Assembly: GCA_964019135.1 (NCBI GenBank)
Contig: OZ025256.1
Span: forward strand, 39,652,035 to 39,716,034
DNA: 64,000 nt
Reading direction: 5' to 3'
Source: Arenicola marina
Lineage: Eukaryota > Annelida > Polychaeta > Arenicolidae
Numbering within the stretch: position 1 is the first letter of the stretch; each line of letters begins with the position of its first letter. A program made the position numbers and the translations under genes. The notes beneath the pieces are model-generated. The model did not search any database. It worked only from the letters and a program-made list of their open reading frames with translations, and was not told where the DNA came from. This document shows, piece by piece, positions 30,816 to 60,949 of the stretch.

Positions 30816-31302
30816 CGTGAGTCGGGCCAGATTGAAATGTACACGGATCCCCGGCGGCCACCTTCCGAGTACCGACGCCGGCGCCTCGGGCCCATGGCAA
30901 CCACAGTGGGCCTCCACCGATCCGCCACCCTCCCACCCGCTTCCCGCCTCGGGCTCGCAATCGCCTTGTGGCCATAAAGGCAAGGATTACTGACATTGTA
31001 CCGAATTAGCGGGATGTTGTGAGGCAATCTCAAGGGGACCACGACGCACAAATCACTGCTCAATTAGTTGCTCTGCAATGGCCCCCGCCGGCCACGTGCT
31101 TTCACCTGAAGCAGTCTCCCCACAGAGGTCGCGTCAATGGCTTCTTATCACATTACCAAACTTCAGTCACCAGCCCTGGTATCAATTTGCTCGATGGTCT
31201 GTTCATCGGAATGGAGCGAACTGCCATCAGGACGACGGAATGGCCATCCGCCTTGTTTTCGAATGTCGCGGCAGTTCATGGTGCGGCTCCGTGATATAAA
31301 TG

Positions 31303-31561
31303 GGGCCGCCCCGATAGCTCAGTGGGCTAGAGCGATCGCCTCGAGTGCTCTGGCCACCTGAAAGCTTAACGGCACGTGGATCGATGGTTCGGGCCCCGCT
31401 GTGGCCATGTCTGTGTGGTCGAGGATAAAGATCCCATGTCCTTCTTCGCAAAGAGTAGGGGGTTACCCCCGGGGACATGGCTCAACTCTCCGTTCCTTCC
31501 GCCATTGACACACTATGACCAAACGTGGTTAAAGCAACCTGAATATACAACCAACCAACCC
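31303..31561 (+). mobile_element. tRNA-derived SINE-1, full length
   Basis: The SINE is flanked by TGATATAAATG on both sides (31292-31302 and 31562-31572). The head has an A box, TAGCTCAGTGGG (31315-31326), and a B box, GGTTCGGGCCC (31386-31396), with an insertion between them. The body carries GGGGACATGGCTC, and the 3' end is an AACCAACCAACC tail. Intact flanking repeats and close resemblance to the copy at 59076-59331 suggest a fairly recent family. The head is tRNA-like but not a working tRNA gene, since the arms do not close. Confidence 0.92.
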
Positions 31562-31696
31562 TGATATAAATGCAGGACTTCGGAGGCGTAACTATTGGTG
31601 GGCGCAAAAATTTATTTGGATAATGCTTATCTGTATTGCGAGATGTCCCAAAAGCGATCTGCAGTGCCATGTGGTATCAGTCTTCTATTCCAAGCG

Positions 31697-31873
31697 GGAC
31701 CGCCGTGTCCGAGTGGTAGAACACTCGACAGCAGATCAATAGATCCCTGATTCTAAACCAGATCTTGGCGATTTAATCTGGGGCACCTGCCATCCAAATC
31801 ATATTTTGTTTCGCGGAGGCTCCTTGGTCTAATTTAGCCATCCTGTGCACAGACCGGGCCTCAAACAACAATT
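31697..31873 (+). mobile_element. tRNA-headed SINE-2-like segment in block C
   Basis: GTGTCCGAGTGGTAGAACAC resembles the A box of Ser/Leu-type tRNAs and TGATTCTAAACC a decayed B box. The segment continues to ACCGGGCCTCAAACAACAAT. The same segment is present at about 39449-39617 and 54603-54776, so it was part of block C before it multiplied. Confidence 0.55.
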
Positions 31874-31981
31874 TTTTTTTTCAGTTCCGAGCGCCTTTAC
31901 ACATGTGATATTCATTGGCTCATTTACTTCTATAGTTCCACAGTTCAATAACGAACACAACATGGCTTTGGGGGAGTCTCC

Positions 31982-32432
31982 CACTCTGCCAGCAGAGGGC
32001 ACTTGTTCCTCACATCACCTATGCCCCACCTCACGGTTGACCCCAACGATCTCGGGCTCACGAATGGTTTTAGAGTTGTTTTTTTATATTAAATATGGAA
32101 TTTTCGATGCAGAATTTGAAAAATATAGACATTCCGTTGTCGAATGATCACAATGGAAGAGTTAAGCTCACGGGATCAAAGTTCAAAACGCTTCACGTTT
32201 TTGACCTCGACCGCACTCGCAAATATAGTTCGAGAGTAACATGGCTTCAAATTATTCAAACTCAAATGCATTCGTCAATGCTAAACAGTGGTGTATTTGA
32301 TACCAGACTGCGAATCAATCTTAGATTAGATTCATTTCAATTTTCGCGTATGAAGGATCATTCTAGTGGTTAAATTTGACATGGGGCAGAGGGACTATGG
32401 CGCAAGCGTAACGCCCTCTGGCCGAGAGATCG
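31982..32432 (+). mobile_element. Family A inverted-repeat element, copy 2
   Basis: The element is flanked by GGAGTCTCCC at 31972-31981 and 32433-32442. Block C copies 2 and 3 show the uninterrupted site (near 39728 and 54898), confirming insertion. The left end has CTCTGCCAGCAGAGGGC and the right end the inverted GCCCTCTGGCCGAGAG. At 451 bp with no coding potential it is non-autonomous. The two copies differ by scattered substitutions, suggesting an old family. Confidence 0.85.
31989..32003 (+). promoter_or_regulatory. CTCF-like core motif, second copy
   Basis: CCAGCAGAGGGCACT also fits the CTCF core consensus throughout. It lies in the left end of family A copy 2, the same position as in copy 1. 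Confidence 0.4.
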
Positions 32433-32989
32433 GGAGTCTCCCTATCTTAGCTCGCAAGGAGTCGGGGGTTACCTCGAGGACATGGCTCCACTCTCCCTGC
32501 CTTCTCTCGTTGACGCGATATGACCAAAAGCGGTTAAAGCGCCCTGAATATACAACCAACCAACAACCATCTCGCCATCTCAGTTAGTAAGCAGGATGAG
32601 CGGCAGACACAAGGGTTGTGGATACCAACCCTGGCACCTGCATCTTGGGCAACTCATTTCATTGTCCTCCGAGATTTCTTGGTTTAATGTGGCGTTCATG
32701 TGTCAAATATCGGACCAAGCACACCAATATCTCATCATGGAGCCTCCTAGTACACACAAGTCGTCTAAAACTCCATCAAGATGAATTCATGTTATTTTTC
32801 AATGTCCGTTGTATGAGTTTAAACAAACATATATAGATGTGAACTACCGATCGACGAACACGGCTACCCTTAAATTGTATATATCCTGCTAATCCGTAAT
32901 CTTTATGTTTTACCCGTTATGTACTATGAGCGTAATGGCTTTCTACACGAAATACACTTACTACTATATGTATAATCATTCATATCTGG

Positions 32990-33970
32990 GAATAATATAG
33001 TTAATCTTGCCTTGTTTTATTATGTGGATGAATGTTCTGGTTTCTAAATGTTGGCATAGCTTCATTCTCCGTCAGGGGAAATAAAACCCCCCTTGGTAAG
33101 GGCAAAGACGAGAGCTGTGGTCTTTGGGTGGTGCGAGGTGGGCGGGTGGGGGGCGGGGGTGGGTGGGGGGGCGCTGTCTGATGAGGGAGGGAGGCGAAGT
33201 GGATGATATATTGATGTACCGGGGCGGTGATGTTCCTCCTGCCAGGTCGCTTCCTCTGCCCCTCGGTGGGCTGCATAGCGCCGTCTCGCGGATTGTTATT
33301 CACAAGGCCACCGGAGACGCCCCCTGGCGGCGTTGACCATTACCAGGCAAGGTGAAAGGCCGAGCAGGTCGAGGCTGTTCCACACACCAACAAGGGCATA
33401 GCGCCACAAATATGGGGTAAAGGCTTTGACTCTGTTATGGGTTTTCGCCCCTCCCAGGCATAAAATTTCTTGACGACTCCCATTAATCAAGTCTCGCGAC
33501 TTAGGCTATGATTGGTCCTAGGGGGCGTGGTGCTGACAATGCTGAAGGCCTGAATGTCTGTTGGACTGGGTGGTGAGGAGAGGGAAGGGGGTAGGGGGGG
33601 GGGGGTGATAATCGTGCAGGGACGCGTTTTTAAGCCCAATTTATATCCGTGGTCAAAAATGAGAGCGCCCCGCTAGCGATTTAGAGTCTCCATTATGGAC
33701 AGAGCGTCGGATATTAAGCTGTAGAGCCATGTTGAAAATATTAAAGTTTTTTACAGAATTTTTTTCACTGACAAACATAATGAAGCCTACCGCTATGTAG
33801 AATAGTTTCAACTGAAAAGTGTATTTACGTCCTTGTAAAAAAAGAGAGGAAATATATACGTAATAATTAAGAAGACATTTTGTTAAATGCTCTATTTTGG
33901 CGATATTATGAATGCGGAAATGTGTGGCTTTATTGTGTATTGCGTCATAACAGTTATCTAGGACCTGCAT
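32990..33970 (+). repeat. Block E, copy 1
   Basis: It starts at TTAATCTTGCCTTG and matches 55270-56271 over nearly 1 kb, with about 95% identity in the right two thirds (for example GTGATAATCGTGCAGGGACG and the following 120 bp). It includes G-runs at 33592-33605, and the interior has no convincing coding frame. The high similarity marks this as the youngest long duplication in the window. Confidence 0.85.
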
Positions 33971-34440
33971 CCGGGGCCAGTTTCATCTCATCTCATTTCA
34001 TTATCCTCGGAGATGTCTTGGCTTAATGTGGCGTTCATGTGTAAAATAAAGGGCCAACCACTTCTTGGGCACACAAGTCGTCTAAAAGGCAGGCACTAAC
34101 GTTTCGTTTGCCACGTCTCCTCATCAAGATAACTTTCATGTTATTTCTCGATGCCCGTTGTATGACGAATTAAGACATTCATATATAGATGTGAACTACA
34201 GATCGAAGAACTCCTCGCAAATGTTCGCTAAATAGATTAAGTCCCACAATAAGCAAGACATACTGAATTGATCAATTTATTTATGTAAGGCAGAAAGTTT
34301 GCATCAAGCGAACGGCGAAACTTAAATTTTATAGGTCCTGTTACACCGAAATATTATATGGGCCTGATGGCTTCCTATATGAAATAAACTTACTTCTATA
34401 TATATATATGTATATCTGGGAATACTATAATTAATCTTGC
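33971..34440 (+). repeat. Block C fragment (3' part)
   Basis: From TTTCATCTCATCTCATTTCA through GGCTTAATGTGGCGTTCATG to GATGTGAACTACAGATCGAA, this repeats the 3' part of block C found at 32650-32860, 39945-40190 and 55070-55240. The left portions of C are missing here. Confidence 0.75.
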
Positions 34441-37400
34441 CTTGCTTTATTATATTGATGAATTTATAATATTCCTCAGGAAGGAGTTCAACACGGTTCA
34501 GCTCATATTTTGCACATAAAGTAAGCAAAATGTAGGGGATGCGTCCCCAGTCCTGAGCGTTATCCTAGAGCTTAATGTGTGTCATGGGTATGAATCCAGT
34601 AAACTAGTCAAATGTTTCGGACCTTATGCTAAATCAATTCATTTTCATTGGAGCAGAATCGAACCAGACAGGCACGCAACATTCTCCAGCGTACAGCCAT
34701 TTCGGTCCCCGGGTTAAAATTAATCCAATACAAGGCCGTAACTTGTGGTGTGTTTTTACATCAACCATTACATATGTCCTCATCTAAGGTATGTGGTCTG
34801 GTCTGGGTCGACCGTCGCATTACGGCTTTTCTATAAATAATGTCGAGATATATTCGATCATTATTTATACAAAAAAACAAAACAATGGCGGCGTCTTCCG
34901 TTTTATGAATAATATTAACGTAGTGTCTGTATATATGTTGGGTTGATGAAAAAACAAACAATTTATCTGTATCGGGTCGTTTCCCTTTTCTCTTGCCGAG
35001 GGCAATAGCGACAGATAGGTCGGAGTGATTCCAGAAGGACGAACCGACAGAGGTAAGGCAGCATCGCTCTGGTCGCGACCCCTGGTGGCAGCAGCTGGTA
35101 AGTGTGTTTTTGACATACGGGCAGTGCGCCGGGCAGGGCAGGAGCTCTAATGACACTGCTGGGTCGATCGCGGGCCAGACGACAAAGGAATTTTTGTATC
35201 CGTGCTTGCTTGGTCGTACAAACGGCGGATTGGGCAGAAAGAGGGTTCACAATAATTAGATCCCCCCCGCCCCACTTCCGGCCCTGCTGAATAAAATTAC
35301 GTTTCCCTCCGATCCATCCGTCAGATGTTGTACCCCCCCCCCACTCCCATGCTTCCTTTCACGCTAGGCGTTGCGTAAGCGTGCATAATATTCCTCAGGA
35401 AGCCGGGGTCCAACACTGTTCAACTCATAAATTGCACATAAAACTAAACTATAAAACAAAAGGTAGGGGTGAGCCCCCAGGAGCGCCACTTTACCTCCTC
35501 CCCCTCCCTTCACGTCATGGGGGTCACCTATGCGTTGCCATGCAACCTCCATGGATAACGACATGGTCTATATATAGTGACAACCATCCGGCCATAGATC
35601 CCGTTAAACCCACAATGACGTTCACAATGCTGTTGATTAATATCGCACCCATCAAAAATTAATTACACCCATTGTAAAGTGTGCACCATATCGTTCTACT
35701 AACACATCGGAGATAGGTAAAAAATCGATTATGTTATTCCAATTAAACTTGATGTGTATGAACCGCATAAACTAGTCAACTGGTTCAGACTCTATACTTA
35801 GTCACCACATTTTGATGCAAAATGTGGTGACTAAGTCAAGGAACGTAACATTTTCCAGCGAAGAGCTGTTTCGGTCAACGGCTTTAATTAATCCAATACA
35901 CAGCTGTGATTTGCGCCGTGTTTTTACATCAAACATTACATTTGTTCTGATCCATCGAATGTCGTCCGGTCTGACTCGGCCGGGGCATTACGGCTGCTCT
36001 GCAAATAACGAAACATATCCGATCATTATTTTTTTTTAAAGAATGAATTGACAATAATAACGACGGCGGCTTCCGTTGGCTGCCGTCAATATGAATGATA
36101 TTGGTGTAGTGCCTGTAGATTTCTCTCATACAAGAACTGATTTTTTTCATGCCAGCAATAAACGCAACATGCTTTCATGCCGGTGTTCGTCCAAATCAAC
36201 GTCGCTCTTACCGGACAGACAAATATCAATACTTTCCTACGATATGGCAGAAATGACCTATGACGGCTTAAAAGCTTTCCATTAACGAAATGCCATCCCA
36301 GTTATCTCGTAGAGGATTTGCCTGACCGCATTAATGTCTGAACAACGGTAGACATGCCCAGTACAGATCGTATCTTTTTCGAAATCAATCTGTTTTCTGG
36401 CGAAACGTAGGCCATTCCCATGGTGACTGTGTGGCAGTGGAAGCATTATGGACGCAACACTGAGACAAATAGAAAGGAACTAATTGGAAGATGAAAGATT
36501 GCTTTGTTCCCTGTCCCGTACGCAACCGTCGTTTGTAGTGTTGTTTTATTCACGTTCCTGGGACCGGCAGCTAACACGATCATTTCACCCCAATTAATTA
36601 ATTTAACGTTTTATCAAAGCTATACATAAACACGCCTTTTCGTCTTTGCCTGCTCTCGTAATATGCATAGTGATATGGTGAAGGTTACATTGCGTTGGAG
36701 CCGGATGAAATATTCCTTTGTTTCCTTCCCCGCGAGTAATCATTTGCAGTGCTGTTTTGTTCACTTTATACCTGGGACCGGCAACTAACATGATCAATAA
36801 TTAATTTAACGTTTTATCAAAGATATGCATTTTCGTCTTTGCCTGCTCCGGTAATATGTATCGTGATATGGTGAAGATTGCATTGCAGCATTGGATCAGG
36901 ACATTTGTTGGAAGTCGCCTTGAGATTGGGAGAACAATATAATGCTCCTCACTCCTTGCAAAATGGGAGAAAGAGAAATAGAGAGACATGGAAAGGCAAA
37001 ATGGGGACATGTTTTAGTCTTCATCATCATTTATTCAAGGGCAGGAGGTTGCTCCCTGGAAAACCACTCTATGATTGTTGGTTCATCCAGTGGCAAGTTT
37101 GTGAATGCGCAAATAATTTATTATCTCATAAATGTATAGAGTCACCCCTGTCATTGTGAAACAAATCTAGAAACGTAATCTGCATGTAACGCTATTCTAT
37201 TAATTCTGAAATCTCGTCTAGATCGTCTTCTTGGTAATACCGCATTTATCTCGGGAAATCCCAGGCAGTCCGACTTCCATGTCTATCTGTGGCTGTGGCT
37301 TTCTTTATCTTGCTCTCTATCACCCAGTTTGGCCAGACCGCAATGTCTGCGCAAAGATGTTTTCGATGTTTGCACCCCGAAGACCTAATGCTACACAGAT

Positions 37401-39235
37401 ACCAAGTCTATGGCACTGAACGAAAATCCACACGAGCGGCCACCTAGAGCTGTGGTATCCAATCGTCGTCAAAGATGATAAAAAAACTGGAGACTCAATT
37501 GGCAAAATATTGATTGGCATCACTCAGCACGGGCTGTGGCGCGGCGGCGTGGTGCGGTGCGGGCGGCCACGGTCCCTCCCTGAGATCTGATATACGGCGC
37601 AATGCTATTTGCTGCCACCTCTAAAGGGTGGCCACGCCGCGCCGATTCTCCCACCTTCCCTCCCCCCTCCCTCCCTATCCCCGCCCTAACCCTAACGCGA
37701 CCGCCGACATTTGATTTGAGCGGCCATACCGCGGGGGAGATAGCCGCGGTTTGCCCCTCATCTCTATGCGACTTACTAATGAGAAGTACTAGTTTTTCAT
37801 GAAACCCCACCCCTCTTCAACAAAGACGCGTCCCTCAATATTGACTGGTTTTAATCATCCGCAGATAAATGGCACACTTCTCGTGCGTCGACTGGCACTG
37901 CACTCACGCATCCGTCCCACTAGCTGCAAACAATATATTGAAGCACACCCTGGTATGTTGCACAAGTCGAAGGAATTTATCGAATAACACGGCGGCTTTC
38001 TTCTGGTGATGATTCCGCGTCATTGCGCGGTGGCAACACTGCCATTGTGGTAATTGAATCACTTGCATGTCATGGTCCCCAATATAGAATGAAGCGTTAA
38101 ATAACGCTACGATATCCCTGTAGACCAGTGTTCCGCAGACCAAATGTGGCCGGGGAAGGCAGCTATCTACATGGGAAATTTCTATAGCTGGAAAGCCGCC
38201 CCGCCCATTCCGGCAAGAAAAAATATATAAGAATCAATTTCGCCTGGATTAAAACCGTTTTTATTTAAATGGCCGTCATGCCTATCAAAAACAGACGTTC
38301 TGGTGAAGTGGTAGTGCGGTCCCCAATGCGACGTCGGCTGATTGCTAGCGATACGGTAGGAATCATTTGGTTGCCAAGACGACGCTGCACGCCGAGGTAA
38401 ATGAGAGGCGTAAAATGAAAGGCGATACCTGCCACAGTGAGACTCGTGAATCAAGTAAATAAAAAAGAATCAATGTTTTATCTGCAGGCGATTTATCTTG
38501 AGGATCTCATGGAATATTTCACATCTTAAGGTTTACTATTCGATTCAAGTGTAGACGGAGACAACGTTAATGCTGAGGACATCAGTAAGTCAATGAATTG
38601 TACGGAAAGAGAAACTATTCATGCTTGACCCATTGCCACTTACATGAAGTGCCCACAAGGCATTTTGTGCATTGGGAGTAGTTTGAGGGAAGGAAAAACA
38701 AAAGCAATGCTGAGGCCCTTTCCATCTGAGGAAAGTGACGCTAAAATCGAAAAAAAACTGGTAAAGGCGAATGCCATTTGAGTGAAGTGATGCCGACGGA
38801 TTTCATGACCCATGAAGATCGGATTATGTGACCTATTTCATGATTCAAGAAGTGTGGATGATCTTTTAGGACTGAATTATGCAACCAAAAAAATTAGACT
38901 TTGAGACTGGTTAACTGCTCCCATGCGCTACAGGTGTTGCATGATATAGCTGATTAACTACCAATACATGATGCTTTATATATCGGATTTAAGTAGCTAT
39001 AAAGATTGCATTACACGGCTGATTTAATTACAAATACATGTTGCTTTACAAACTTGGTTAGACGTCCAATATATGTTGCATGGCGTAGTAGTAGTAATTT
39101 CAATTTTAGAAGTACAGATGAATTTGTTACGTGAGATTTAAAGTCAGATTGTAATTCTATAACATGCTCGATGCCACATTGTAATAAACGGCGAGGTTTA
39201 CAGTGTTTCTTACGGCGTGGCTTACTCTTGGCTAT
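34441..39235 (+). repeat. Block D, copy 1 (about 4.8 kb)
   Basis: This is a long non-coding block recognised by ordered landmarks shared with copies 2-5: GCAGGGCAGGAGCTCTAATG (35133), GATGTGTATGAACCGCATAA (35750), GCTTTAATTAATCCAATACA (35880), a GC-rich patch GGGCGGCCACGGTCCCTCCC (37561), ATAACACGGCGGCTTTCTTC (37984), and AACGTTAATGCTGAGGACAT (38564). It also contains an internal diverged duplication: 34470-34880 and 35390-36100 are versions of the same sequence. No frame is conserved as a plausible protein. The type of element is unknown. It passes into block C at its right end. Confidence 0.8.
35796..35836. other. Perfect 19-bp hairpin private to D copy 1
   Basis: ACTTAGTCACCACATTTTG and its exact reverse complement are separated by ATG. 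The other D copies have the left arm but continue with AAAATTGAACCAGAGAGG instead of the right arm. The right arm was therefore copied from the left one by template switching. Confidence 0.85.
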
Positions 39236-40185
39236 AAATGTAGGGCCAGATTGAAATGTACACGGTTCCTACAGCCGATGGCAACCACAGTGGGCCTTCA
39301 ATTTTATGTGGCGGCTCCGTGATATAAATAGAGGAAAAAAGATTCAGTGGACAATTATTTAATAATAATTTATTTGGACAATGTATATCTGTATTGCGAG
39401 ATGTCCCAAAAGTGGTCTGCAGTGCACAGTGCCATGTGGTATCAGTCCTGGCTGAGTGGTAGAACACTCGACAGCATATCAATAGGTCCCTGATTCCAAA
39501 CCCGGTCTTAGCGATCTAATCTAGGGCACCTGCCATCCAAACCATACTTTGTCTCGCGGAGGCTCCTTGATCTAGTTTAGCCATCCTGTGCACAAACCGG
39601 GCCTCAAACAACAATCGGTTCATTTTTTCCGTTCCGAGCCCCTTCACCCGTGGGTGTGGCATTCACTGGTTCCATTAGGTCCATAGCTTCATAGTTCAAT
39701 AGTTATTACGAACACAACATTTATCAGGGGGGCGTCTCCCTATCTTAGTTCGCAAAGAGTAGCGGGTTACCTTGGGGACATGGCCTTCCTCTCCTTCCCT
39801 TCTCCGCATATGACCAGAAGTGGTTAACGCGTCCTGAATATACAATCAACCATCAACTATCTCCCTATCTCAGTTAGTAAGCAGGTTGAGCTGCAGACGC
39901 AAGGGTTGTGGATGCGAACCCTGGCACCTGCATCGGGGAAAGTTTCATCTCACCTCATTTCATTGTCCTGGGAGCTCTCTTGGCTTTGTGTGGCGTTCAT
40001 GTGTACAATAACGGGCCAAGCACACCAGTATTTCCGTATTGAGCCTTCTTGTGCACGCAAGTCGTCTCAAACGCAGACACTCACGTTTCATTTGCTACGC
40101 CTCTCCATCAAGATGAATTTCACGTTATTTTTCGATGCCCATTGTATGACCAATTAAGACATTCATTTATAGATGTGAACTACCG
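39236..40185 (+). repeat. Block C, copy 2
   Basis: Opens with GGGCCAGATTGAAATGTACA and runs through the SINE-2-like segment (about 39449-39617), an uninterrupted site for family A (39728), a SINE-1 3' part (39745-39860) and the GGCGTTCATGTGTACAATAA tail. It has no SINE-1 insertion at GTGATATAAATAG. It lies between D copies 1 and 2. Confidence 0.8.
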
Positions 40186-43100
40186 ATTGAAGAACTCCCC
40201 ACAACTCCTACAGATACAGAAAGAGGGTTCACAATAATTTGATAGCGCCCCCATCCCCGGATTCCCCTCGCCCCCCACCTGCTGCAGTAAATTGAGCTTG
40301 CTCCGGTCGTCAGATGGTGTACCCCTCCCCCCCCCCCCTCTTGGCCCTTCTTCCCCTTCACACGCCCCCTTTCACTGTAAGCATCGCGGTAACGTGCATA
40401 ATATTCCTCAGGAAGGACTTCAAAACGGTTCACCTCATAGATTGCACATAAAGTAAGCAAAATGTAGGGGATGCGTCCCCAGTCCTGAGCGTTACCCTAG
40501 AGCTTAATGTGTGTCATGGGTATGAACCCAGTAAACTAGTCAACTGTTTCAGACCTTATGCTGAATCAACTCATTTTCATTGGAGCAGAATCGAACCAGA
40601 CAGGCACGCAACATTCTCCAGCGTACAGCCATTTCAGTCCATGGGTTTAAAATTAATCCAATACAAGGCTGTAACTTGCGGTGTTTTTACATCAACTATT
40701 ACATATGTCCTCATCCATGGTATGTCGTATGTTCTGGCTTGGCCGTCGCATTACGGCTGTTCTGCAAAGAACGTCGAGATATATTCGATGATTATTCATA
40801 CATAAAAAAATGACGGTGTCTTCCGTTTTATGAATGATATTAACGTAGTGTCTGTATATATATGGAGTTGTTTGAAAAAATATTATTGATCTGTATCGCG
40901 GCGTTTCCCTTTTCTCTTGCCGAGGGCAATAGCGACAGATAAAGGTCGGAGTGATTCCAGAAGGACCAACCGACGTAAGTAACGCAGCGTCGCTCTGGCC
41001 GCAACCCCTGGTGGCAGTAGCTGATAAGTGTGTTTTAGACATACGGGCAGTGCGCCGGGCAGGGCAGGAGCTCTAATGACACAGCTGGGGTCGATCCATG
41101 CTTGGTCTTACAAACGGCGGATTGGGCAGAAAGACGGTTAACAATAATTAGATCCCCCCCCCTCCTCTCACACACACACTCCCTATCCGGCCCTGCTGAA
41201 TAAAATTGCAGCTCCCTCCGGTGGTCGTCCGATACTGTACCCCCCTCCCCCTTCCTTCCCCATCCCACGCTTCCTCTCACACTAGGCGTCGCGTAAGCGT
41301 GCACAATATTCCTCAGGAAGTTTGGGGCCAACACTGTTCAACTCATAAATTGCACATAAAACTAAACAAAGATAAAGGTGAGCCCCTAAGAGCGCCATTT
41401 TACAACCCGCCCCCCCCCCTCACCCTCCTTCCACGTCATGGGGGTTGCCTATGCGTTGCCATGCTGCCTCCATGGATAACGACATGGTCTGTGTATGGTG
41501 ACAACCATCCAGCCTCAGATCCCGTAAAACCCACAATAACGTTCACAATGCTGTTGATTAAATACGTACCCGATCAAAAATTAATTATGCCCATTGTAAA
41601 ATGTGCCTCACATCGTTCTATTAATACGTCGGAGAAAAAATAAAATCATTTCCGCTTTTTTCTATAAAAGTTGATGTGTATGAACCGCATAAACTAGTCA
41701 ACAACTGGTTCCGACCGTATACTTAGTCACCTCATTTTGATGCAAAATTGAACCAGAGAGGAATGTAACATTTGCCAGCGTAGAGCTGTTTCGGTCAATG
41801 GCTTTAATTAATCCAATACACAGCTGTGATTTGTGGCGTGATTACATATGTCCTCACCCAAGGTATGGCGTCTGGTCTGGCTCGGCCGTCGCATAACGGC
41901 TGTTCTGCAAATACCTTCGAGACATACCAAAAAAAGAGAGAAGTAATTGGCACTAATAGCAACCACGGGTTCCGTTGGCTTCCATCAATAGGAATGATAT
42001 TGGTGAAGTGTCTGTAGATTTCTCTCAGAAAAGAACTGCTTTCAAGCCGGTGTCCATCCAAGTAATCGTCGTTCTTACCGGACAGAACAACATCAATACT
42101 TTTCGAAGATATGGCAGAAATGGCCTATGACAGCTTAAAGGCTTTCCACTAAAGAAATGCCATCGGAGTAGAGGATTTTCCTGATCGTATCAAAGTCTGA
42201 ACAAGGCAGATTTGCTCAGTACATTGCCCAGATATTTCTAGAACTCCCATGCTGACTGTGTCACTGGAAACACTATGAAAGCGGAACTAAGACAAATAGA
42301 AAGGGACTAAATGGAAAATGAAAGATAGTTTTGTTTCCTTGTCCGTGCGTATCCATTTGCAGTGCTGTTTTGGTTCACATTCCTGGGACCGGCGGCTAAG
42401 ACGATCAATAATTAATTTAACGTTTTATCAAACGCCTTTTCGTCTTCATCCCGGGGAATTCCAGATATTAATCTAACCTCCAAGTCTATCTGTGGCTGTT
42501 GTTTTCTTCATCTTTTCGTCTTCATCTCGGGAAATTCCATGTATTAATCTGACCTCCAAGTCTATCTGTGGCTGTTGTTTTCTTCGTCTTGCTCTCCATC
42601 ACCCAGTTTGGCCAGAGCGCTGTGTCTGCGTTAAGATGTTTTCGATGTATACGGTCCGAAGAGCTAATGCCACACAGATACCAAGTCTATGGCCCTTAAA
42701 GAAAATCCACACCAGTGGTCACCAAGAATTGCGGTATCCACTCGTCGTCAAAAATGATGCAAAACTGGAGATTCAATTGGTAGTTGGGGCCCCGGGAAAT
42801 ATTGATTGGCATCACTCAGCACGGGCTGCGGCGCCGCGGCGCGGTGCGGTGCGGGCGGCCACGGTCCCTCCCTGAGATCTGATATACGGCGCAATGCCAT
42901 TTGCTTCACCTCTAAGGGTGGCCACGCCGCGCCGATTCTCCCACCTTCCCACCCCCTCCCTCCGACTCCCGCCCTGCCCCTCCCCGACACCGCGGCGGCC
43001 GGCAATTTTCCAGTTGATTTGAGCGGACATAACGCGGAGGAGATAGCTGCGGTTTGCCCCTCATCTCTATGTGACTTAGTAATGAGAAGTGCTAGTTTTC

Positions 43101-43560
43101 CATGACACCCCCCCACCACCCCCACCCCTCAACAAAGGCGCGTCCCTCAATATTGACTGGATTTAATCATCCGGAGATAAATGGCACAATTCTCGTGCGT
43201 CGACTGGCACTGCACTCACGCATCCGCCCCGCTGGCTGCAAACAATATATTGAAGCACACACCCTGCAGCTGTTGGCAAAGCGCTGGAGTTCGGACTCTT
43301 TTACTTGGTAAGTCGAGGGATTTTATCGAATAACACGGCAGCTTTCTTCTGGTTATCATTCCGCGTCATTGCGCGGCGGCAAACACCGCCATCGTGGGAA
43401 TTGAATCACTTGCATGCCATGGCCTACAATATAGGAATGAAGTGTTACATAACGCTACGATATCGTTGTTGACCCGTGTTCTTCCGACCAAATGTGGCCT
43501 GGGAAGGCAGCAATTTACATGTGAACGGGTCCTTCAACATTGCCGCCACGTTAGCTAGAA
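40186..43560 (+). repeat. Block D, copy 2
   Basis: The same landmarks as copy 1 occur at a shift of about 5.93 kb in the left half (GCAGGGCAGGAGCTCTAATG at 41061, GATGTGTATGAACC at 41673) and about 5.3 kb at the GC-rich patch (42854), because of internal deletions. Its left part includes an extra copy of the CAGAAAGAGGGTTCACAATA block (40208), which recurs at about 41128. The right part fades after 43560 into low-copy DNA. Confidence 0.8.
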
Positions 43561-47163: not shown

Positions 47164-47291
47164 CCATATGGTCTTTCTACCATTGCTTGACAGGTCTGTC
47201 ACCATTGTTGGACATTCGTTGACATGCTGTTTCTGCCGCGTAAATATGACCTTACTTTTATCCATTTATTTCCTATTGCCCCGGTGTCTAG
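47164..47291. other. Short spacer after the 60-bp array
   Basis: It contains one decayed unit-like piece (GGTCTGTCACCATTG) and then unique sequence. Confidence 0.4.
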
Positions 47292-50395: not shown

Positions 50396-51499
50396 GACGC
50401 TCAATAAATGTGGCACAGTATAGTACCTGATGATTTATTTGGCACAAATGGCAATTTGCCTGATATAACAAACATCTGTACGGTATGCTTGGTGAACTTT
50501 TCGAAATGCCCGTCCTGGCATACAGCACGTGACATACAGTTAGCTTGCTCAATGCTAAATGTAATTTGTTTAATAATATATATAATTTGTCCAATACTAT
50601 AGGTAATTTGTTGCATACCGACATCGTGTATGCAATGCTAAATGTAATGTGGGATATGCTGATTTTGTTATCAGCGATGAATGTGCTTTGTTTATGCTGA
50701 ATATCGTTTGCTCAAATACAACGCGCATGTTGTTCCACAATTGCTGCATTACTTCCATTATTTTATAATTATAAATGTAATTTTGTCATCTTAATTATCA
50801 TGTGTTTAAAACTAAATGGAATTTGTTGAACAACGATTCCTTGCAGCGATTCTACGCAGCAGATTAGTATGAACCACATCCTCATCCCTTCGCCTATATA
50901 GATCGCACCGCATTGCTGCCTTCCCCCTTTTAATAAAATGAGTTGATATATTGGATAATGTTTGTCCGTTGTTATCGTCTGAATTAACAGGTCCTTAGGA
51001 TAGAAGAGTAGCCTATCTACCGTCATCTGGTCGCCTGGTTGCCTGGGTGTGACTGTGCTGTACCACATACATCAGGGGTAGATCCAGTAATTTGGTTGGA
51101 AACGGGGGTTAGGGGGTGGGGGGGGCGGGGGGGCTGGAGTGATCTGACCTGACTGAGACCAGAAGATGCCGCACTCAATTTGTGTGTGTGTGGGGGGGGG
51201 GGGGGGGGCGGGGGGCGCCACAAATAAATGGAGAGGGAGAGGGGGGTATTTGTGTATCGCAAAAATCGAAGACAGATCTAAAATTTGGAAAGGGGGTGGG
51301 GGGCGGAGACGAAGTGATCTCTCCTAAAAACTCTGACTGAAACCGGAGGAGGTCGCGCTCAAGGTGTGTGTATGTGTATGGGGGGGGGGGGGGTACAATT
51401 CAATGGAGAGCGGCAGAGGGAGAGGGGCACTAACAGGTTCCAGACTCTCTCGAGCCCCTCTTGCGACCAGTTCGTGATACCATATACGGTCAAATCAAT
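50396..51499 (+). repeat. Block T, copy 1
   Basis: AT-rich sequence with TTTAATAATATATATAATTT, then TTGTTATCGTCTGAA (50968) and a G-rich stretch around CAGTAATTTGG. It aligns with 56660-57270 in the same order. G-runs occur at 51190-51208 and 51380-51392. It lies between D copies 3 and 4, as its partner lies before D copy 5. No coding content. Confidence 0.7.
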
Positions 51500-54365
51500 T
51501 GTCTGCAATATTGAGTGGATGAAAAAAAAATCTATCACGTCGCTTCCCTTTTATCTTGCCGAGTGCAATGGCTGACGATAAATTTCGGAGTGACCCCAGG
51601 AGGGAACCGACGCTTGCCGCGACCCCTGTGTTATTTTGACACACGGGCCCTTGCGCTGGGCAGGGCCGGAGCTCTAATGACACAGCTGGGGTCGATCGCG
51701 TGCCAGACGAAAAGAGGATGTTTTGATCGATGCTTGTTTGGTCTTACAACGGCGGATTGGGCAGAAAGAGGGTTCCCAATAATTAGATGCACCTCCCCCC
51801 CCCACCTGCTCACACACCCACCCCTTGTCCGCCCCTGCTGAATAAAATTGCGTTTCCCTCAGATCGTCAGATGTTGTACACCGCTCCCCACTCCTTCCCC
51901 CTTCTACGCTTGCTGTCAAGCTAGGCGTCGCGTAAGCATGCATAAAATTCCTCAAGAAGCCGGGTACCAACACTGTTCAACCCATAAATTTCCCATAAGA
52001 CTAAACAAAAGTTAGAGGTGAGCCCCCAGGGGCACCACTTCAACCCCCCACCCTCCTCCACGTCATTGGGGTCACTTATGCCTTGCCATGCGGCCTCCGT
52101 GGATGACGACATGGTCTGTATATGGTGACAACTATCAAGCCGTATATCCCGTGAAACCAACCATGGCATTTAAGGCGTTGTTGATTAAATTCGCACTCGA
52201 TCAAAAACTAGTTATGCCATTGTAAACTGAGCATCATATCGTTCTATTAACACCTCAGAAAAACACCTGTTCGTTCAATTAAACTTGATGTGTATGAACC
52301 GCATAAACTAGTCTACTGGTTCAGACTTTATGATGCAAAATCACCACATCTTGATGCAAAATCGAACCAGGGAGGATTGTAACATTTTCCAGCGTATAGC
52401 TGTTTCGGTCAACGGCTTTAATTAATCCAATACACAGCTGTGATTCGTGGCGTCATTTTATATCAACCATTACATATGTGCTCATCCATGGTGTGTCGTC
52501 TGACCTGGCTCGGCCGTCGCATTACGGCTGTTCTGCAAATAGCTTCGAGATATATCCGATCATAATTTCTAAAAAAAGAATAAATTGACAATAATAACGG
52601 TGGCGGCTCCCGTTGGCTGCAAACGCTATTCAATTAATTCTGAAATCGCTTCTACATCGTCTGCTTGGTAATAGCTCATTGATCGCGGGAAATCCCAGGT
52701 AAGCTGACCTCCATGTCTGTCTGTGGCTGTTGTTTTCTTCGCCTTGCTCTCCATCGCCCCGTTTGGCCAGACCGCAGTGTCTGCGTTAGGATGTTTTCGA
52801 TGTATGCGGCCCGAAGAGTCAATGTTATACAGATACTATAAGTCAATGGCACTCAAAGCAAACCCACACGAGCGGTCACCTAGAGCTGTGGTATCAAATC
52901 GTCGTCAAAAATGATAAAAAACTGGAGATTCAATTGGCAGTTCGGGCCCCGGGAAATATTGATTGGCATCACTCAGCACGGGCTGCGGCGCCGCGGCTCG
53001 GTGCGTCCGGGCGGCCACGGTCCCTCCCTGAGATCTGATATAAGGCGCAATGCTATTTGCTGCCACCTCTAAAGGGTGGCCACGCCGCGCCGATTCTCCC
53101 ACCTTCCCTCTCCCCTCCCCCCTCCCCCTATCCCCGCCCTACCCCTCCCTGACACCGCGACGGCCTAAAAATTGTCCAGCTGATTTGAGCGGACATAACG
53201 CGGAGGAGATTGCCCTCATCTCTCTGCGACTTAGTAATGAGAAGTACTAGTTTCCCATGACCTCCCCCCACCTCCAAACACGGACGCGTCCCTCAATATT
53301 TACTGGATTTAATCATCCAAAGATAAATGGCACACTTTTCGTGCGTCGACTGGAACTGCACTCACGCATCCGCCCCACTGGCTGCAAAGCAATATATGGA
53401 AGCACATCCTGCAGGCAGCTGCAGGCAAAGCGCGGGAGTTCGGGCTCTTTTATATGGTATGTTACAAAAGTCGAGAGAACCTATCGAATAACACGACGGC
53501 TTTCTTCTGGGTCTGCTTTCGGGTCATTGCATGGCGGCAAACACTGCCATCGTGCTAACTGAATCACTTACAGGCCATGGTCTCCAATATAGGAATAAAG
53601 CGTTTCATAACGCTAAGATATCCCTGTAGGCCCGTGTTCCTTCGACCACATGTGGCCAGGAAGGCATCAATCTACATGTGAAATGGTCGTCCGACATTGC
53701 CGTCACATTACCTAGATCACCCTCGAGCCTCCCCCTCCCCCCCCCCCCCCGCAAGCACAAATATATGACATTCAATTTCGTCTGGATGAAAACGGATTTG
53801 CGCGAAAGCGTTTTCATTTAAATGACCGTCAAGCCCATTGAAAGGTGCAGTGATGGTGTGGAAACCAAAGCAACATAGACGGATCTCATGAAACAAATGT
53901 ACATCTCAAGGTTTTCAAATCGCTTGAAGTGAAGACGGACACACCGATAATGCTGATGACATCAGTATTTCAATGAATAGTAGGGACAGAGATGATCTTT
54001 TAGGATTGAATTATGCAACTAAAAATATGACACATTGAGACTGGTTAACAGCTACCATGAGCTACAAGTATTGCATGATATAGCTGATTAACTTCCAAGA
54101 AATGATGCTTTATATATCCGATTTAAGTAGCGATAAAGATTGCATTACATGGCTGATTTAATCACAAATACATGTTGCTGGTTAGACGTCCAATATATGT
54201 TGCATGGCGTAGTGGCTAGAAAGTCGAGTTTCGAAGTACAGGTGAATATGTCACGTGAGATTTAAATTGATATATATAATATATATATAACATGCACGAT
54301 GCCACACGGTAATAAACGGCGTGGTTTAAAGTGTTTCTTGTGGCGTGGCTTACTCTTAGCTATAA
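51500..54365 (+). repeat. Block D, copy 4
   Basis: Landmarks: GGATGAAAAAAAAATC (51517), GGGCCGGAGCTCTAATGACA (51664), GATGTGTATGAACCGCATAA (52287), GCTTTAATTAATCCAATACA (52415), GC-rich patch (53012), AATAACACGACGGC (53488), and a decayed GATAATGCTGATGACATCAG (53946). It passes directly into block C at 54366 exactly as D copy 1 does at 39236, which supports a common D-C unit. Confidence 0.8.
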
Positions 54366-55269
54366 GTGTAGGGCCAGATTGAAATGTACACGGTTCCTAC
54401 AGTCCATGGCAACCACAGTGGGCCTTCAATTTTATGGTGCTGCTCCGTGATATAAATGCAAGATAAAGATTTCGGAGGAGTAATTTTTAAATTTTTAGTG
54501 GGCTAAAAAATGTATTTGGACAATGCTTATCTGTATTGCGAGATGTCCCAATAGTGGTCTGCAGTGCCATGTGGTATCAGTCTTCTATTCCAAAGAGGAT
54601 CGCCCTGGCTGAGTGGTGGAACACTCGACAGCAGATCAATAGGGTCCCTGATTCCAAACCCGGTCTTAGCGATTTAATCTACGGCACCTGCCATCCAAAT
54701 TATACTTTGTCTCGCGGAGGTTCCTTGGTATAATTTAGCCATCCTGTGCACAAACCGGGCCTCAAACAACAATCAGTCCATTTCTCCGTTCCGAGCCCCT
54801 TCACCCGTGGGTCTGGCATTCATTGGTTGCATTAGGTCCATAGTTTCATAGTTCAATAGTTATTACTATTAGTTATTAACACAACTTTTCTCATGGGGGA
54901 GTCATCCTATCTCAGTTCGCATAGAGTAGCGGGTTTCCTTGGGGACATGGCTCTCCTCTCCTTGTCCTGAAGATACAACCAACCAACAACCATCTCCCCA
55001 TCGCAGTAACAAGATGAGCTGCAAACACAACGGTTGTGGATACCAACACTGGTACCTGCATCTCTGGCAAGTTTCATCCCAACCCATGTCATTGTCCTCG
55101 GAGATGTCTTGATTTAATGTGACCTTCTTATGTGTAAAATAACGGGCCAAGCACACCAATAGTTCATTATTATGCCTAGTTTCTTGTGCACTTAAGTCGT
55201 CTTAAATGCCAGCACTAACGTTTCCTTTGCTACGCATCCCCATCTGCAATCGTTCATATCTGGGAATAC
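54366..55269 (+). repeat. Block C, copy 3
   Basis: Opens with GGGCCAGATTGAAATGTACA, has an uninterrupted GTGATATAAATGCAAG site for SINE-1, the SINE-2-like segment (54603-54776), an empty family A site (54898) and a SINE-1 3' part. It then continues through the CATCTGCAATCGTTCATATC junction into block E. Confidence 0.8.
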
Positions 55270-56271
55270 TATAATTAATATAATTTTATAACTACAATAC
55301 ATGTACTATACTATAATTAATCTTGCCTTGCTTTAGTATATTGATGAATGATAATGGTTTCTAAACGTTGGCATAGCGTCATTCTCCGCCAGGGAGAAGA
55401 AAAACCCCTTTAGCAAAGGCAAAAACGAGAACGGTGGTCTTTGGGTGGTGCGTGGTCTTTGGGCTGTGCGTGGTGGGCAGGTGGGGCTGGCTGATGAGGG
55501 AGGGAGGCGAAGTGGATAATATATTGATGTACCGGGGCGGTGATGTTCCTCCTGCCAGGTCGCTTCCTCTGCCCCTCGGTGGGCTGCATAGCGCCGTCTC
55601 ACGGATTGTTATTCACAAGGCCACCGGAGACGCCCCCTGGTGGCTCTGACCATTACCAGGCAAGGTGAAAGGCCGAGCAGGTCGAGGCTATTCCCCACAC
55701 CAGCAAGCGCATTTGTTCCACAAATATGGGGTAAAGGCTTTGACTCTATTATGGGTTTTCGCCCCTCCCAGACATAAAATTTCTTGACGACTCCCATTAA
55801 TCAAGTCTCGCGACTTAGGCTATGATTGGTCCTGGGGGGCGTGGTGCTGACAATGCTGAAGGCCTGAATGTCTATTGGACTGGGTGGTGAGGAGAGGGAA
55901 GGGGGTAGGGGGGGGGGGGGGTGATAATCGTGCAGGGACGCGTTTTTAAGCCCAATTTATATCCGTGGTCAAAAATGAAAGCGCCCCGCTAGCGATTTAG
56001 AGTCTCCATTATGGACAGAGCGTCGGATATTAGGCTGTAGAGCCATGTTGATTATATTAAAGTTGGCGAATTTGTTTCACTAAGAAACATCATTAGGCCT
56101 ACTTCTATGTAGAATAGTTTCAACGGAAATGGTTTATTTACGTCCCGGTAAAACAAGAGGAAAGATATGTGCAATAATTAAGAAGACATTTTGTTAAATG
56201 TTCTATTTTGGCGATATTATGAATGCGGAAATGTGTGGCTTTATTGTGTATTATGTCATAATAGTTATCAA
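55270..56271 (+). repeat. Block E, copy 2
   Basis: Near-identical to copy 1 at 32990-33970. It carries GACGCCCCCTGGTGGCTCTG (55630-55649); its reverse complement CCACCAGGGGGC matches the conserved centre of the CTCF motif. The corresponding site in copy 1 reads CCGCCAGGGGGC. An inverted relative of its GCGACTTAGGCTATGATTGG region (55811-55830) lies at about 56463-56500. Confidence 0.85.
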
Positions 56272-56468
56272 CCCCGAGAACCCATATGCCACCGTAGAGC
56301 CTTACGGCTCGTGGATCGGTGGTTCGAGCCCCACTGTGGTCATGTCTGTGTGATAGCTGGATAAATATACTCTGTTTCTTCGCAACAAGTAAGGGGTTAC
56401 CCCCGGAGACATGGCTTCGGGATAGGAACAAAAGTGATTAAAGCGTCCTGAATATGATACCAACCAAC
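56272..56468 (+). mobile_element. SINE-1, 5'-truncated
   Basis: It begins inside the head (near the B box GGTTCGAGCCCC, 56322-56333) and runs through GGGGTTACCCCCGGAGACATG to a CCAACCAACC tail. Block E copy 1 lacks it at the matching place, so it arrived after E was duplicated or was lost there. Confidence 0.8.
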
Positions 56469-57269
56469 CTAGGACCAATCATAGCCTAGGCCGCGGGAAT
56501 TATTAATGGGAGCCTAGAAATATTTTTTCTTGGAAAAAACGAAAACTCATAACAGACTTTACTCACTTACTGTTGCATAGGCCGTGTCGGCGTGGGGACC
56601 CACTATATTCATACAAATATGTATAATGCTTCATCTCCCAGTTAAGACATGGTAGCATATATGGCAATTTGTTCGACATAGTAAAAAAGAATGTGTGTGA
56701 TATGCATGAGAAATTATTCGAAACCTACCGGTCAGTATCTACAGTACGTGAGAGTAGTTTTTTTGCAGTCACAATTGAAGCTTGGCGCCCAAATACAATT
56801 TGCTCCATACGGAATATGATTCGTTCAATAATGTATATAATTTGTCCAAGAGTACTACTGTCGCTCATATACGTCCCACATTGTTGCAGCCAAATAGGTG
56901 AGATATTGGATGATATTTGTCCCTTGTTATCGTCTGAACCAACATGACCTCCTTAAGACATAGAAATGACCTGCCTACCGTCATCTGGTCGTATAGTTGA
57001 CTGGCTGCGACTGGACTAGGTATATCGCATATATCGGGACAGATCCAGTAACTTGGAAGAAGGGGGGAGAGGGAGGGGGGGGGGCTGAAGTGATCTCTCC
57101 TCACAAATGACACTGAGACCGCAAGAGATCGCACTCGAGGTGTGGGGGGCGGGGTGGGGGGGGGGAGTCAGAAGCAAATGGAGGGGAGGGGGATCGTCAC
57201 AAATAAATGGAGATGAGAGGAGGGACACTGACGAGTTGCCGACTCCCTCTATATCCCCTTTGCATCAGT
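56469..57269 (+). repeat. Inverted E fragment and block T, copy 2
   Basis: The first 120 bp are an inverted, diverged relative of the middle of block E. From about 56660 the sequence follows block T (CAATAATGTATATAATTTGT, TTGTTATCGTCTGAAC at 56927) and leads into D copy 5 as T copy 1 leads into D copy 4. Confidence 0.65.
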
Positions 57270-60200
57270 CCGCACATACCAGATATATTGTCTGCCATAA
57301 TGAGTTGATGAAAAAAAAAATTATCAGAACAACTTAGAGGAAGATAAATGTCGGAGTGACTCCAGGCAACTGACAGAGGTAAGGAAGCGTCGCTCTGGCA
57401 GCGACCCCTGGCGGCAGCAGCTGGTAAGTATGTGTTTGACATACGGGCACTGCGCCGGGCATGGCGTGAGCTCTAATAACACAGCTGGGGTCGATGGCAT
57501 GCTGGACGAAAGAGGGATTTTGTTTCGATGCTTGCTTGGTCTTACCACAACGGATTGGGTAGAAAGAGGGTTCACAATCATTAGGCGCCCCCCTCGTCCT
57601 CCTTACACACACACCGCCTGTTCGCCCCTGCTGAATAAAATTGCGTTTCCCTCCGGTCGTCAGATGCTACACCCCCCCCCTCCCCCTTCCCCTTCCCACG
57701 CTTACTGGCAAGCTAGGCGTCGCGTAAGCGTGCATAGTGTTCCTCAGGAAGGCGGGGTCTAACGGTGTTCAACTCATAAATCAAGCATGAAACTAAACAA
57801 AAGGTATGGGGTGCGCCCCCAAAAGCGCCACTGTACAACCCGCCCCCCTCACCCTCCCTCCACGCCATAGGGGTCACCTATGCGTTGCCATGCAGCCTAC
57901 AGGGATAACGATATGGTCAGTATATGGTGACATCCATCCAGCCGTAGATCCCGTTATACCCACAATGGCGTTCACAATGATGCTGTTTAAGTTCGCACAC
58001 GATCAAAAATTAATTATTGTGCCCATTGTAAAGTGTGCCTCACATCGTTCTATTAACACACCGGAGAAAGGGAAAACATCGTTTCTGTTTGTTTCGATTA
58101 AACTTGATGTGTATGAACCGCATAAACTAGTCAACTGGTTCAGACCGTATATTTAGTCACCTCATTTTGATGCCAAATTGAACCAGAGAGGAATGTAACA
58201 TTTGCCAGCGTAGAGCTGTTTCGGTCAATGGCTTTAATTAATCCAATACACAGCTGTGATTTGTGGCGTGATTACATATGTCCTCACCTAGGGTATATCG
58301 TCTGGTCTGGCTCGCCCGTCGCATAACGGCTGTTCTGCCAATAACTTCGAGACATATCCAATCATTATTTATAAAAAAAGAAGTAATTGAAATCAGTAAA
58401 GACGCGGGTTCCGCTGGCTGCCATCGATATGAATGATATTGGTAGAGTGTCTGTAAATTTCTCGCAGACAAGAACTGATTTTTTTCATGCCAGCAATAAA
58501 TGCCACATGCTTTCAAGCCGGTGTCCGTCCTAATCAACGTCGCTCTTACTGGCCAAGAAGACATAAATATTTTCCGTGGATATGACAGAAATGGCCTATG
58601 ACAGCCTAAAAGCTTACCATTAAGCAAATGCTATCGGAGTTATCTCGTAGGGGATTTGCCTGACCGTATCACTGTCTGGACAACCGTAGATCTGCTGAGT
58701 ACGTTGCCGATATATTTATAAAACTCATCCTGCTTTCTGGCGAAAACTAGGCAGTTCCCATGGTGACTGTGTGTCAGTGAAAACACTATCAAAGCCGCGC
58801 TGAGACAAATAGAAAGGGACTAATTGGAAAAGAAAAGAGTTCCTTGTTTCCGTGCTTATTCATTTGCAACGCTGTTTTATTCACGTTCCTGGGACCGGCA
58901 GTTAACACGATCAATAATTAAGTTAGGGTTTCATCAAAGCTATGCATAGACATGCACTTTCGTCTTTGATTGCCCTAGTAATATGTATCGTGATAGGGTG
59001 AAGCTTACATTGCAGCATTGCATCAAAATATTTGTTGGTTGTCGGTCCCTCGGTCACTCCTTGTCAGGTGGGAGATTGGTTGGTTGTATATTCAGGACAC
59101 TTTAACCACTTTTGGTCATATCGCGTCAATGGGAGAAGGAAGGGAGAGTGGAGTCATGTTCCCGGGGATAACCCCATACTCTTAATGAAGAAAGACATCG
59201 TTATCCTGCGACCACACATACATGGCCACAGTGGTGCTCGAATCACCGATCTACGTGCCGTTAGGCTCTCAGGTGACCAGAGTACTCAATGCGAGCGCTC
59301 TAACGCACTGAGCTATCGAGGCGTCCCCGCCAGATGGGAGAAAGTGAAATACAGAAACAGAGAAAGACGGAATGGGGACATATTTTACTCTTCATCTTAA
59401 TTTATTCAAGGGCAGGAGGTTGCTGCCTGGAAGACAACTCTGTAATTGTTGGTTCATCCAGTGGCCAGTTTGTGATTGCGAAAGTAAATTATTATCTCAT
59501 AAAGCCATGGAGTCACCCCTGTCATTAGTAAAACAAATCTACAAACTTAATTTGCATGTGACGCTATTCCATTAATTCTGAGATCCTCTTCTTGGCAACA
59601 GCGCGTTCAACCGGGGACTCCCAGGTAGTTTGACCTCCATGTCTATCTGTAGCGGTCGTTCTCTTTGCCTGGCTTCCCATGCAGTTTGGCCAGACCGCTA
59701 TGTTTTCGATGTTTACGGTACGAAGAGCTAATGCTACACAGATAACAAGTCTGTGGTCCCTAAAAAGAAGTCCACACGAGCGGTCACCTAGAGCTGTGGT
59801 ATCCAATCGTCGTCAAAAATGATGAAAAACTGGAGATTCAGTTGGTAGTTGGGGCCCCGGGAAATATTGATTGGCATCACTCAGCACGGGCTGCGGCGCC
59901 GCGGTGCGGTGCGGTGCGGGCGGCCACGGTCCCTCCCTGAGATCTGATATACGGCGCAATGCTATTTGCTGCCACCTCTAAGGGTGGCCACGCCGCGCCG
60001 ATTCTCCCACCTTCCCACCCCCTTCCCCTTATCCCAGGCCTACCCCTCTCGACACCGAGACGGCCAGCAATGTTCCAGTTGATTTGAGCTGACATAACGT
60101 GGAGGAGATAGCCCCGGTTTGCCCCTTGTCACCATGCAACTCAGTAATGTACTATGCGACTAAGTACTAGTTTACCATGACACACCCCCCCCCCCCGCCC

Positions 60201-60949
60201 CCCAACATGTTACACAAGTCGAGGGAACTTATCGAATAACACGGCGGCTTTCTTCTGGTGCTGATGTCGCGTCATTGTCATGGTCCCTAATATAGAAATG
60301 AAGCGTTACATAACGCTACGATATCCTGTAGACGGGTGTTTCTCCGACCAAATGTGACCAGGGAAGGCAGTTATCTACATGGAAAAAAATGATTGTCCGA
60401 CATTGCCGCACTTTAGCTAGAACGCCACCTCCCCCGCCCCTCCGGGCAAGCAAAAAATGCGTGACAATCAATTTCGTCTGGATGAAAACGGATTTGCGCG
60501 AAAACATTTTCATTTAAATGGCCGACCAGCCCATTGAAAGACAGACGTCTGGTGCAGTCAGTCAGTAACGTGCAACGTCGGCTGATTGCTAACGATACGG
60601 TAAGAACCATTTGGTTGCCAACACAACGCTGGACGCCGAGAGACTTCCTCAGTGAGACTCTTGAATCAAGTAAAGAAGAGAATCAGTGTTTTAACTGCAG
60701 GCGATTTATCTTGAGGATCTCATGGATGAATCCACATATCAAGCTTTGTTTTTTCAGGATCGGATATAGATATGCTGAAAAGGTTGGGAGGAGGGGGGGG
60801 GGCGGTTTCGAGTAATGGCCTAGCGTTTTGGCTTTCATATGTTAAATAAATTATACCAGTTTCATATGGTATGAATTGCGGCCATGTCGGACCCCGCTTG
60901 AGCCGCCCCTGTATTCGATTTAAGTGAAGACGGAGACAACGTTAATGCT
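57270..60949 (+). repeat. Block D, copy 5
   Basis: Landmarks: GTTGATGAAAAAAAAAATTA (57304), the GGCGTGAGCTCTAATAACAC region (57463), GATGTGTATGAACCGCATAA (58106), GCTTTAATTAATCCAATACA (58232), GC-rich patch GGGCGGCCACGGTCCCTCCC (59919), ATAACACGGCGGCTTTCTTC (60235), and AACGTTAATGCTGAGGACAT (60938). The copy is interrupted by SINE-1 at 59076-59331 and ends by running into the 20-bp array that grew from its last landmark. Confidence 0.82.
59076..59331 (-). mobile_element. SINE-1, full length, inside D copy 5
   Basis: Reverse-oriented copy of 31303-31561 with A box (reverse of CTGAGCTATCG at 59309-59319), B box and TTGGTTGGTTG tail complement. The flanks AGGTGGGAGA (59066-59075) and AGATGGGAGA (59332-59341) are the target duplication with one change. 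D copies 1 and 3 have the uninterrupted site, near 36961 and 49352, with AATGGGAGAAAGAGAAA or a close form. Confidence 0.93.

Follow-up and report, generated by a model that had tools for sequence, protein, structure and literature searches.

What kind of DNA is the 30-kb cluster of long noncoding blocks that lies in this part of the Arenicola marina genome, where the same blocks recur in the same order? The original prediction suggested that it might be a decayed macrosatellite, built by tandem duplication of one composite unit. Here the window is the whole stretch of 64,000 nucleotides analyzed (C9:39652035-39716034, in an assembly of 867 Mb and 762 contigs). On the mitochondrial contig the gene order under the invertebrate code is nad3, nad2, cox1 (all but cox1 identified by eye), as would befit an annelid. 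Together with 100 kb on either flank the window makes up 264 kb, which were compared with themselves after tandem-repeat masking; positions beyond the window edges are given as window-equivalent coordinates. We found that the locus is an old tandem duplication of one composite noncoding unit, confined to a single locus as far as our searches reach. Four short stretches have stayed letter-perfect in five of its copies, and a fragment of one copy has given rise to a minisatellite.

We named the blocks E (starting at 30816, 39236 and 54366), D, C (the portion after D) and T (the end), and numbered the copies U1 to U5, which are direct and lie in the window, and U6, which is inverted and lies past the window edge. 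In the self-comparison the D block was present five times on one strand, starting at about 34938, 40865, 47999, 51511 and 57301. From one D start to the next the distance is ~5.9, 7.1, 3.5 and 5.8 kb; the original prediction had the five occurrences and the figures of 5.9, 5.8 and 3.5 kb right. The 7.1-kb interval between the second and third copies is long because an unrelated insertion (43605-47930) lies within it. The shared junctions predicted at 39236 and 54366 are real, and the block that starts at both, and also at 30816, is E, present three times (30821-30850 equals 39240-39269 and 54368-54397). Matches of at least 200 bp between copies show 68-93% identity over lengths of up to ~2,200 bp, far beyond chance, and one portion of E in U1 (33167-33958) is 92.7% identical to 55480-56269. 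The composite unit has the order E-D-C-T and measures ~7.5 kb if complete, and its copies are roughly 80% identical. Five direct copies occupy 30.8-60.9 kb, and the inverted sixth occupies window-equivalent 64.6-69.0 kb, just outside the window; the claim that all blocks share one strand thus holds inside the window but not beyond its edge. U1 is the most complete copy and U5 is nearly complete. T is missing from U2, where the insertion now occupies its place; in U3, E, the middle of D and much of C are gone, and U4 is without E and the back of D. U1 (34466-34935) and U2 (40401-40860) each contain an additional internal copy of one D sub-block, at a place where another pre-D piece is found in U4, U5 and U6. 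A profile search of the 264 kb for remoter copies returned the known copies and partial internal duplicates only.

The copies were then sought in the whole assembly, with a search that skips very common words, so that its match counts are lower bounds. For the D and C queries all six first-look candidates were scored in each, and every match (seven of seven for D, seven of seven for C) fell at this locus. For the E and T queries, 40 of 2,373 and 40 of 222 candidates were scored; both matched locally, and among the candidates scored only short pieces resembling short interspersed elements (SINEs) were found beyond the locus. Such SINE-like pieces lie in the unit at ~39743-39852, 54603-54784 and a few other places and are common in the genome. 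The fixed block order, the shared junctions and the restriction of D and C matches to this place support tandem duplication of one unit, as originally proposed. Local tandem duplication calls for several large copies in fixed order that are not dispersed, and both features are found here. The label "macrosatellite" is not established, because there are six copies, ~80% identical, interrupted and one of them inverted; an uninterrupted and highly alike array is not what we observed, given the 4.3-kb insertion, the minisatellites and the inverted copy. In a limited full-text literature search we found neither a paper on a macrosatellite in an annelid genome nor a title on this locus.

Matching trees for the separate blocks had also been predicted, and this expectation failed, since the closest partner of a copy switches between blocks. 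Relatedness was judged by distances, without bootstrapped trees, and pairwise distances ranged from 0.08 to 0.21 (internal sub-block copies of U1 and U2 excluded). U1 and U2 are the closest pair both in front D (0.115) and in late C (0.105); elsewhere the closest pair is U2-U5 (0.109, the sub-block after front D), U5-U6 (0.143, back D), U1-U3 (0.083, early C) or U2-U4 (0.084, C core). Six tests of whether base sharing differs from block to block, selected after the distances had been seen, gave p = 1.7e-5, 0.044, 5.8e-11, 0.040, 1.0 and 3.5e-4, five of the six below 0.05. Such switching points to conversion or unequal exchange after duplication and does not speak against tandem growth. Conversion or unequal exchange is the simplest cause of the mosaic relations, and partial duplications in a complicated order might have contributed.

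Against this divergent background, some stretches are invariant. Among the 1,310 alignment columns with a base in U1, U2, U4, U5 and U6, 872 are invariant, and the longest invariant runs are 35, 32, 28 and 22 columns, followed by 15. In 5,000 shuffles of the columns the longest run averaged 15.9 and reached 32 at most, so that none attained 35, and no second-longest run attained 32. Each of these four cores (Table 1) occurs exactly five times in the 264 kb, four times direct and once inverted. When up to three mismatches were allowed across the whole genome, the 35-, 32- and 28-bp cores were each found five times, only in the five copies and always mismatch-free, and their reversed control patterns gave no match. 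A 25-bp version of the fourth, 22-bp core was likewise found five times genome-wide, with one mismatch in U6; for all four cores the genome-wide pattern searches yielded no match outside the copies. U3 lacks all four because of two deletions, and 15 bp of the fourth core are invariant also in two more divergent internal copies. Counting invariant among ungapped columns over 40 positions on each side, the two flanks gave 13/28 and 25/40 for the 28-bp core, 30/40 and 17/26 for the 22-bp core, and 12/22 and 16/39 for the 35-bp core; the right flank of the 32-bp core gave 16/22, its left side being an uninformative block edge. By eye, the cores include what we take to be an inverted CCAAT box (TGATTGG), an AATTAATCC stretch and a CAGCTG E-box.

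What could hold such stretches constant? The reading we favor, to which we give an even chance, is that the locus may be duplicated cis-regulatory DNA decaying around retained cores. Tandem duplication, by unequal exchange or a replication-based event, has turned one noncoding unit of ~7.5 kb (E-D-C-T) at one genomic site into at least six copies, the last inverted. Since then substitutions, deletions and insertions have worn the copies down and sequence has been exchanged between them in patches, whereas the four cores of 22-35 bp have not changed by a letter in five copies. The cores would be putative protein-bound DNA sites and the remainder spacer; each intact copy would be a putative cis-regulatory module (promoter, enhancer or boundary-like), and U3, devoid of all four cores, a presumably inactive one. 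The alignments show the duplication; that the cores are selected rather than homogenized by conversion, and that they are regulatory, is our inference. Should the cores prove functional, the array would be a ready-made test of which noncoding bases matter, since large parts of the unit outside the cores differ by up to ~20% among the six copies and the cores are missing from one of them. A bolder version, which we consider rather unlikely, would see here a single-site invertebrate array of noncoding control modules organized like mouse Dxz4, in which selection would keep four predicted protein-binding cores per unit, the rest would decay, recombine and spawn minisatellites, and U3 would be a natural core-less knockout.

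Several observations count against the regulatory reading. The cores were picked after the alignment had been viewed, and column shuffling ignores gene conversion. When all copies of each block were included, only two of five blocks passed p <0.05; when gap columns were treated as variable, the p values of front D (0.0002) and early C (0.014) were low as well, so clustered conserved columns are no peculiarity of the cores. The GC-rich core of U2 folds no better than shuffled sequence on either strand (z 0.82 and -0.53). In addition, none of the sites resembling the consensus of CTCF falls in a core. That consensus was tested because of the likeness to mouse Dxz4. With up to two mismatches it matched nine sites in the array, as against 2.68 expected from shuffled consensus (p 0.027), and 28 in the rest of the 264 kb, as against 12.73 expected; a shorter consensus gave six matches in the window versus 4.31 expected. 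Since the excess is found outside the array too and the cores hold no such site, a CTCF identity of the cores is not supported. Separately, a repeated piece at 2559-3040 and 31982-32433, 75.5% identical, begins in both places with CTCF-like CCAGCAGAGGGC.

Neutrality with conversion is a serious rival to duplicated regulatory DNA, and we regard it as a real possibility, if not a probable one. Here the locus would be a purely neutral local tandem duplication without function, whose cores are alike only because conversion kept them so or because few mutations arise there. The mosaic relations do indicate conversion or exchange between copies, and both the somewhat wider clustering of conserved columns and the passing of two of five blocks once all copies are used fit this account. 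It has more difficulty with the tracts themselves, which are only 22-35 bp long within variable flanks and are common to five copies including the inverted one, so that conversion would need to have struck identical short tracts in each of the five.

An array of noncoding RNA genes, whose units would be transcribed and whose cores would be promoter or exon pieces, seems improbable. The lack of a protein-coding signal would suit it, as would letters resembling CCAAT, E-box and TATA elements near the cores (seen by eye only). Against it stand the folding result just given and the Rfam searches, which returned no match at the gathering threshold over the window and none at an E-value of 1 or less over 30700-60950. 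No tRNA gene was found in the window by a search with bacterial settings.

Tandem gene families commonly decay into unreadable exons, and a decayed array of protein genes could look like this locus. We nevertheless hold this to be highly improbable, and the original prediction that no recognizable protein is encoded was borne out. Among 206 aligned open stretches there was no excess of third-position mismatches between copies beyond chance; the best had 12 mismatches, nine of them at the third position, which by our own estimate is about what chance gives in 206 stretches. Pfam searches with 89 open reading frames (ORFs) of the array (88 of at least 80 aa and one more) gave one weak match, to PAD_M (E-value 0.0068), searches with 10 single ORFs, seven of them from the array, gave nothing convincing for the array, and D and C match nothing outside the locus in the DNA-level search. 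Least probable of all, and negligible as far as the genome searches reach, is a series of independent mobile-element insertions: blocks do recur, and E holds SINE-like pieces common in the genome, but D and C matched only here, in fixed order and with shared junctions. The original prediction had named, as a sign of mobility, many scattered copies of D that each have ends and target duplications of their own; such copies were looked for in vain, for D and C alike, only the SINE-like inner pieces behaving in that way.

SINEs that did insert into the unit show what mobility looks like at this locus, as they are dispersed and one has a clear target duplication. This one lies in the E block of U1 and arrived after the duplication; its empty target is uninterrupted in U5 and is present in U2 with one end base changed, and relatives of it occur elsewhere in the 264 kb. 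The same SINE, inverted, separates D from C in U5 (~59038-59333). For the 4.3-kb insertion between the second and third copies no clear target duplication was found when looked for. Parts of it recur at C9:21.12-21.18 Mb and on C12, with short pieces on C4, C5 and C20. The 60-bp array that it carries differs in copy number among the three places examined (48.5, 15.3 and 10.9). The insertion also contains an open frame of 183 aa (47292-47840) with no convincing Pfam match.

Whatever the unit does, the locus shows how a minisatellite arose. A 20-bp array starts inside the T block of U5 (Table 1) and, as judged by comparison with its sister copies, expanded from a single-copy segment of that block. 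Outside the array, the matches to its unit in the 264 kb (E-value 0.5 or less) fall at the same T-block position in U6, U1, U3 and U4, a single copy in each, and the 34-37 bp directly before the array are 85-95% identical to these other four copies. Four sister copies still have the unexpanded 20-bp ancestor in the corresponding position, and they thus reveal directly both what the array started from and what sets its period. In U1 and U4 the segment starts with TGA and a second TGA follows 20 bp on, which is the period of the array; in U3 the first triplet is CGA, and in U6 the second is. The TGA spacing is compatible with slippage at a 3-bp repeat without proving it. Beyond the minisatellite, no clear homology to the rest of T was found for the remainder of T in U5. 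When eight consensus units were searched for an origin of other minisatellites in unit sequence (E-value 0.5 or less), only the 20-bp array of U5 matched.

Table 1 Features of the duplicated locus, in window coordinates unless noted as inverted (U6, window-equivalent).
Feature	Position	Strand	Remarks
E block of U1	30816..34220	+	homologous to 39236-40204 and 54366-56269; includes later SINE
SINE in E block of U1	31302..31558	+	inserted after duplication; direct repeat TGATATAAATG on both sides
Extra internal D sub-block copy, U1	34466..34935	+	from self-comparison and profile search
D block of U1	34938..36690	+	
28-bp core (U1)	35749..35776	+	also 41671, 52285, 58104; inverted 67776
22-bp core (U1)	35886..35907	+	also 41806, 52420, 58236; inverted 67650
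C block of U1	36705..38180	+	
32-bp core (U1)	37505..37536	+	also 42797, 52954, 59862; inverted 66237
35-bp core (U1)	37626..37660	+	also 42916, 53074, 59982; inverted 66156
T block of U1	38504..39080	+	single-copy 20-bp segment ~38574-38593
U2	39236..43604	+	E 39236-40204, D 40865-42447, C 42514-~43604; T missing
Unrelated dispersed insertion, ~4.3 kb	43605..47930	+	not unit sequence; 60-bp minisatellite 44257-47161
U3	47999..50415	+	front D, back D, early C, T; middle D and C core deleted
U4	50868..54179	+	pre-D 50868-51246, D without back 51511-52629, C 52623-53684, part of T
U5	54366..60948	+	E 54366-56269, pre-D 56892-57192, D 57301-59037, C 59334-60382, T to 60948
20-bp minisatellite	60949..62692	+	unit TGAGGACATCACTGTGTCAA, 87.7 copies, 1.74 kb; starts inside T block of U5

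Other tandem arrays surround the copies. Adjoining minisatellites of 21 and 38 bp lie at 27783-30697, just upstream of U1; by eye they have ACCACAGTG-like letters in common with the E block, and the consensus search gave an origin from E no support. A 44-bp minisatellite (62976-64000, continuing to ~64121), for which no origin was found, fills the gap that separates U5 from the inverted U6. Farther upstream, a 6-kb G-rich minisatellite with a 20-bp unit and 300 copies (6949-12936) has a GC skew of ~0.8, a very strong strand asymmetry. At window-equivalent -59216 to -57865 there are 25 copies of a 54-bp unit that by eye resembles a tRNA-like SINE head and is perhaps also repeat-born, and beyond U6, at window-equivalent 81972-89687, an 89-bp unit is repeated 86.7 times with 96% matches over 7.7 kb.

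Upstream of the array, Pfam identified a leucine-rich repeat protein gene on the minus strand (23175-24332) and, further upstream, a Ninjurin-like protein, a rhodopsin-type G protein-coupled receptor and two DHHC proteins. Three long downstream ORFs were tested, of which two contain reverse transcriptase and one is without any match. Among 81 shorter flank ORFs, some of them from the left part of the window, there was one weak Pfam match each to Glyco_transf_7C, THAP, Ricin_B_lectin and zf-RVT, and a GalNAc-transferase-like gene may be nearby; ten flank ORFs tried in placing these weak matches did not carry them.

Among known systems, the locus can be set beside local tandem segmental duplications with gene conversion, which it resembles in having a few kb-sized direct copies at one place in fixed order, partial copies, mosaic relations and one inverted copy; it differs in that the unit contains no gene and keeps four short invariant cores amid ~20% divergence. 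Human macrosatellites such as DXZ4 are likewise kb-sized, mostly noncoding tandem units at one locus, but DXZ4, in the account of PMC3081327, has 12-100 uninterrupted units, with at least 99% identity among 18 sequenced from one clone, whereas here six interrupted units are ~80% identical and one is inverted. Mouse Dxz4 is the counterpart of the primate macrosatellite DXZ4: as PMC3491370 describes it, this is a noncoding tandem repeat of ~35 kb with differing units and a minisatellite nearby, in which only a short CTCF-binding motif is conserved in sequence from one mammal to another. Both loci are noncoding tandem arrays of differing units near a minisatellite. In Dxz4, on that description, conservation is between species, whereas here it is among copies of one genome, in cores that are not CTCF-like, and the animal is an annelid. 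The expansion in U5 has its likeness in yeast minisatellite births, in which, too, a short single-copy segment becomes a tandem array; according to Haber and Louis 1998, as cited in PMC4232551, these are often flanked by direct repeats of 5-10 bp. The repeat here is 3 bp, and, relative to the yeast cases presented in that source, the unexpanded state is read from paralogous copies of the same genome.

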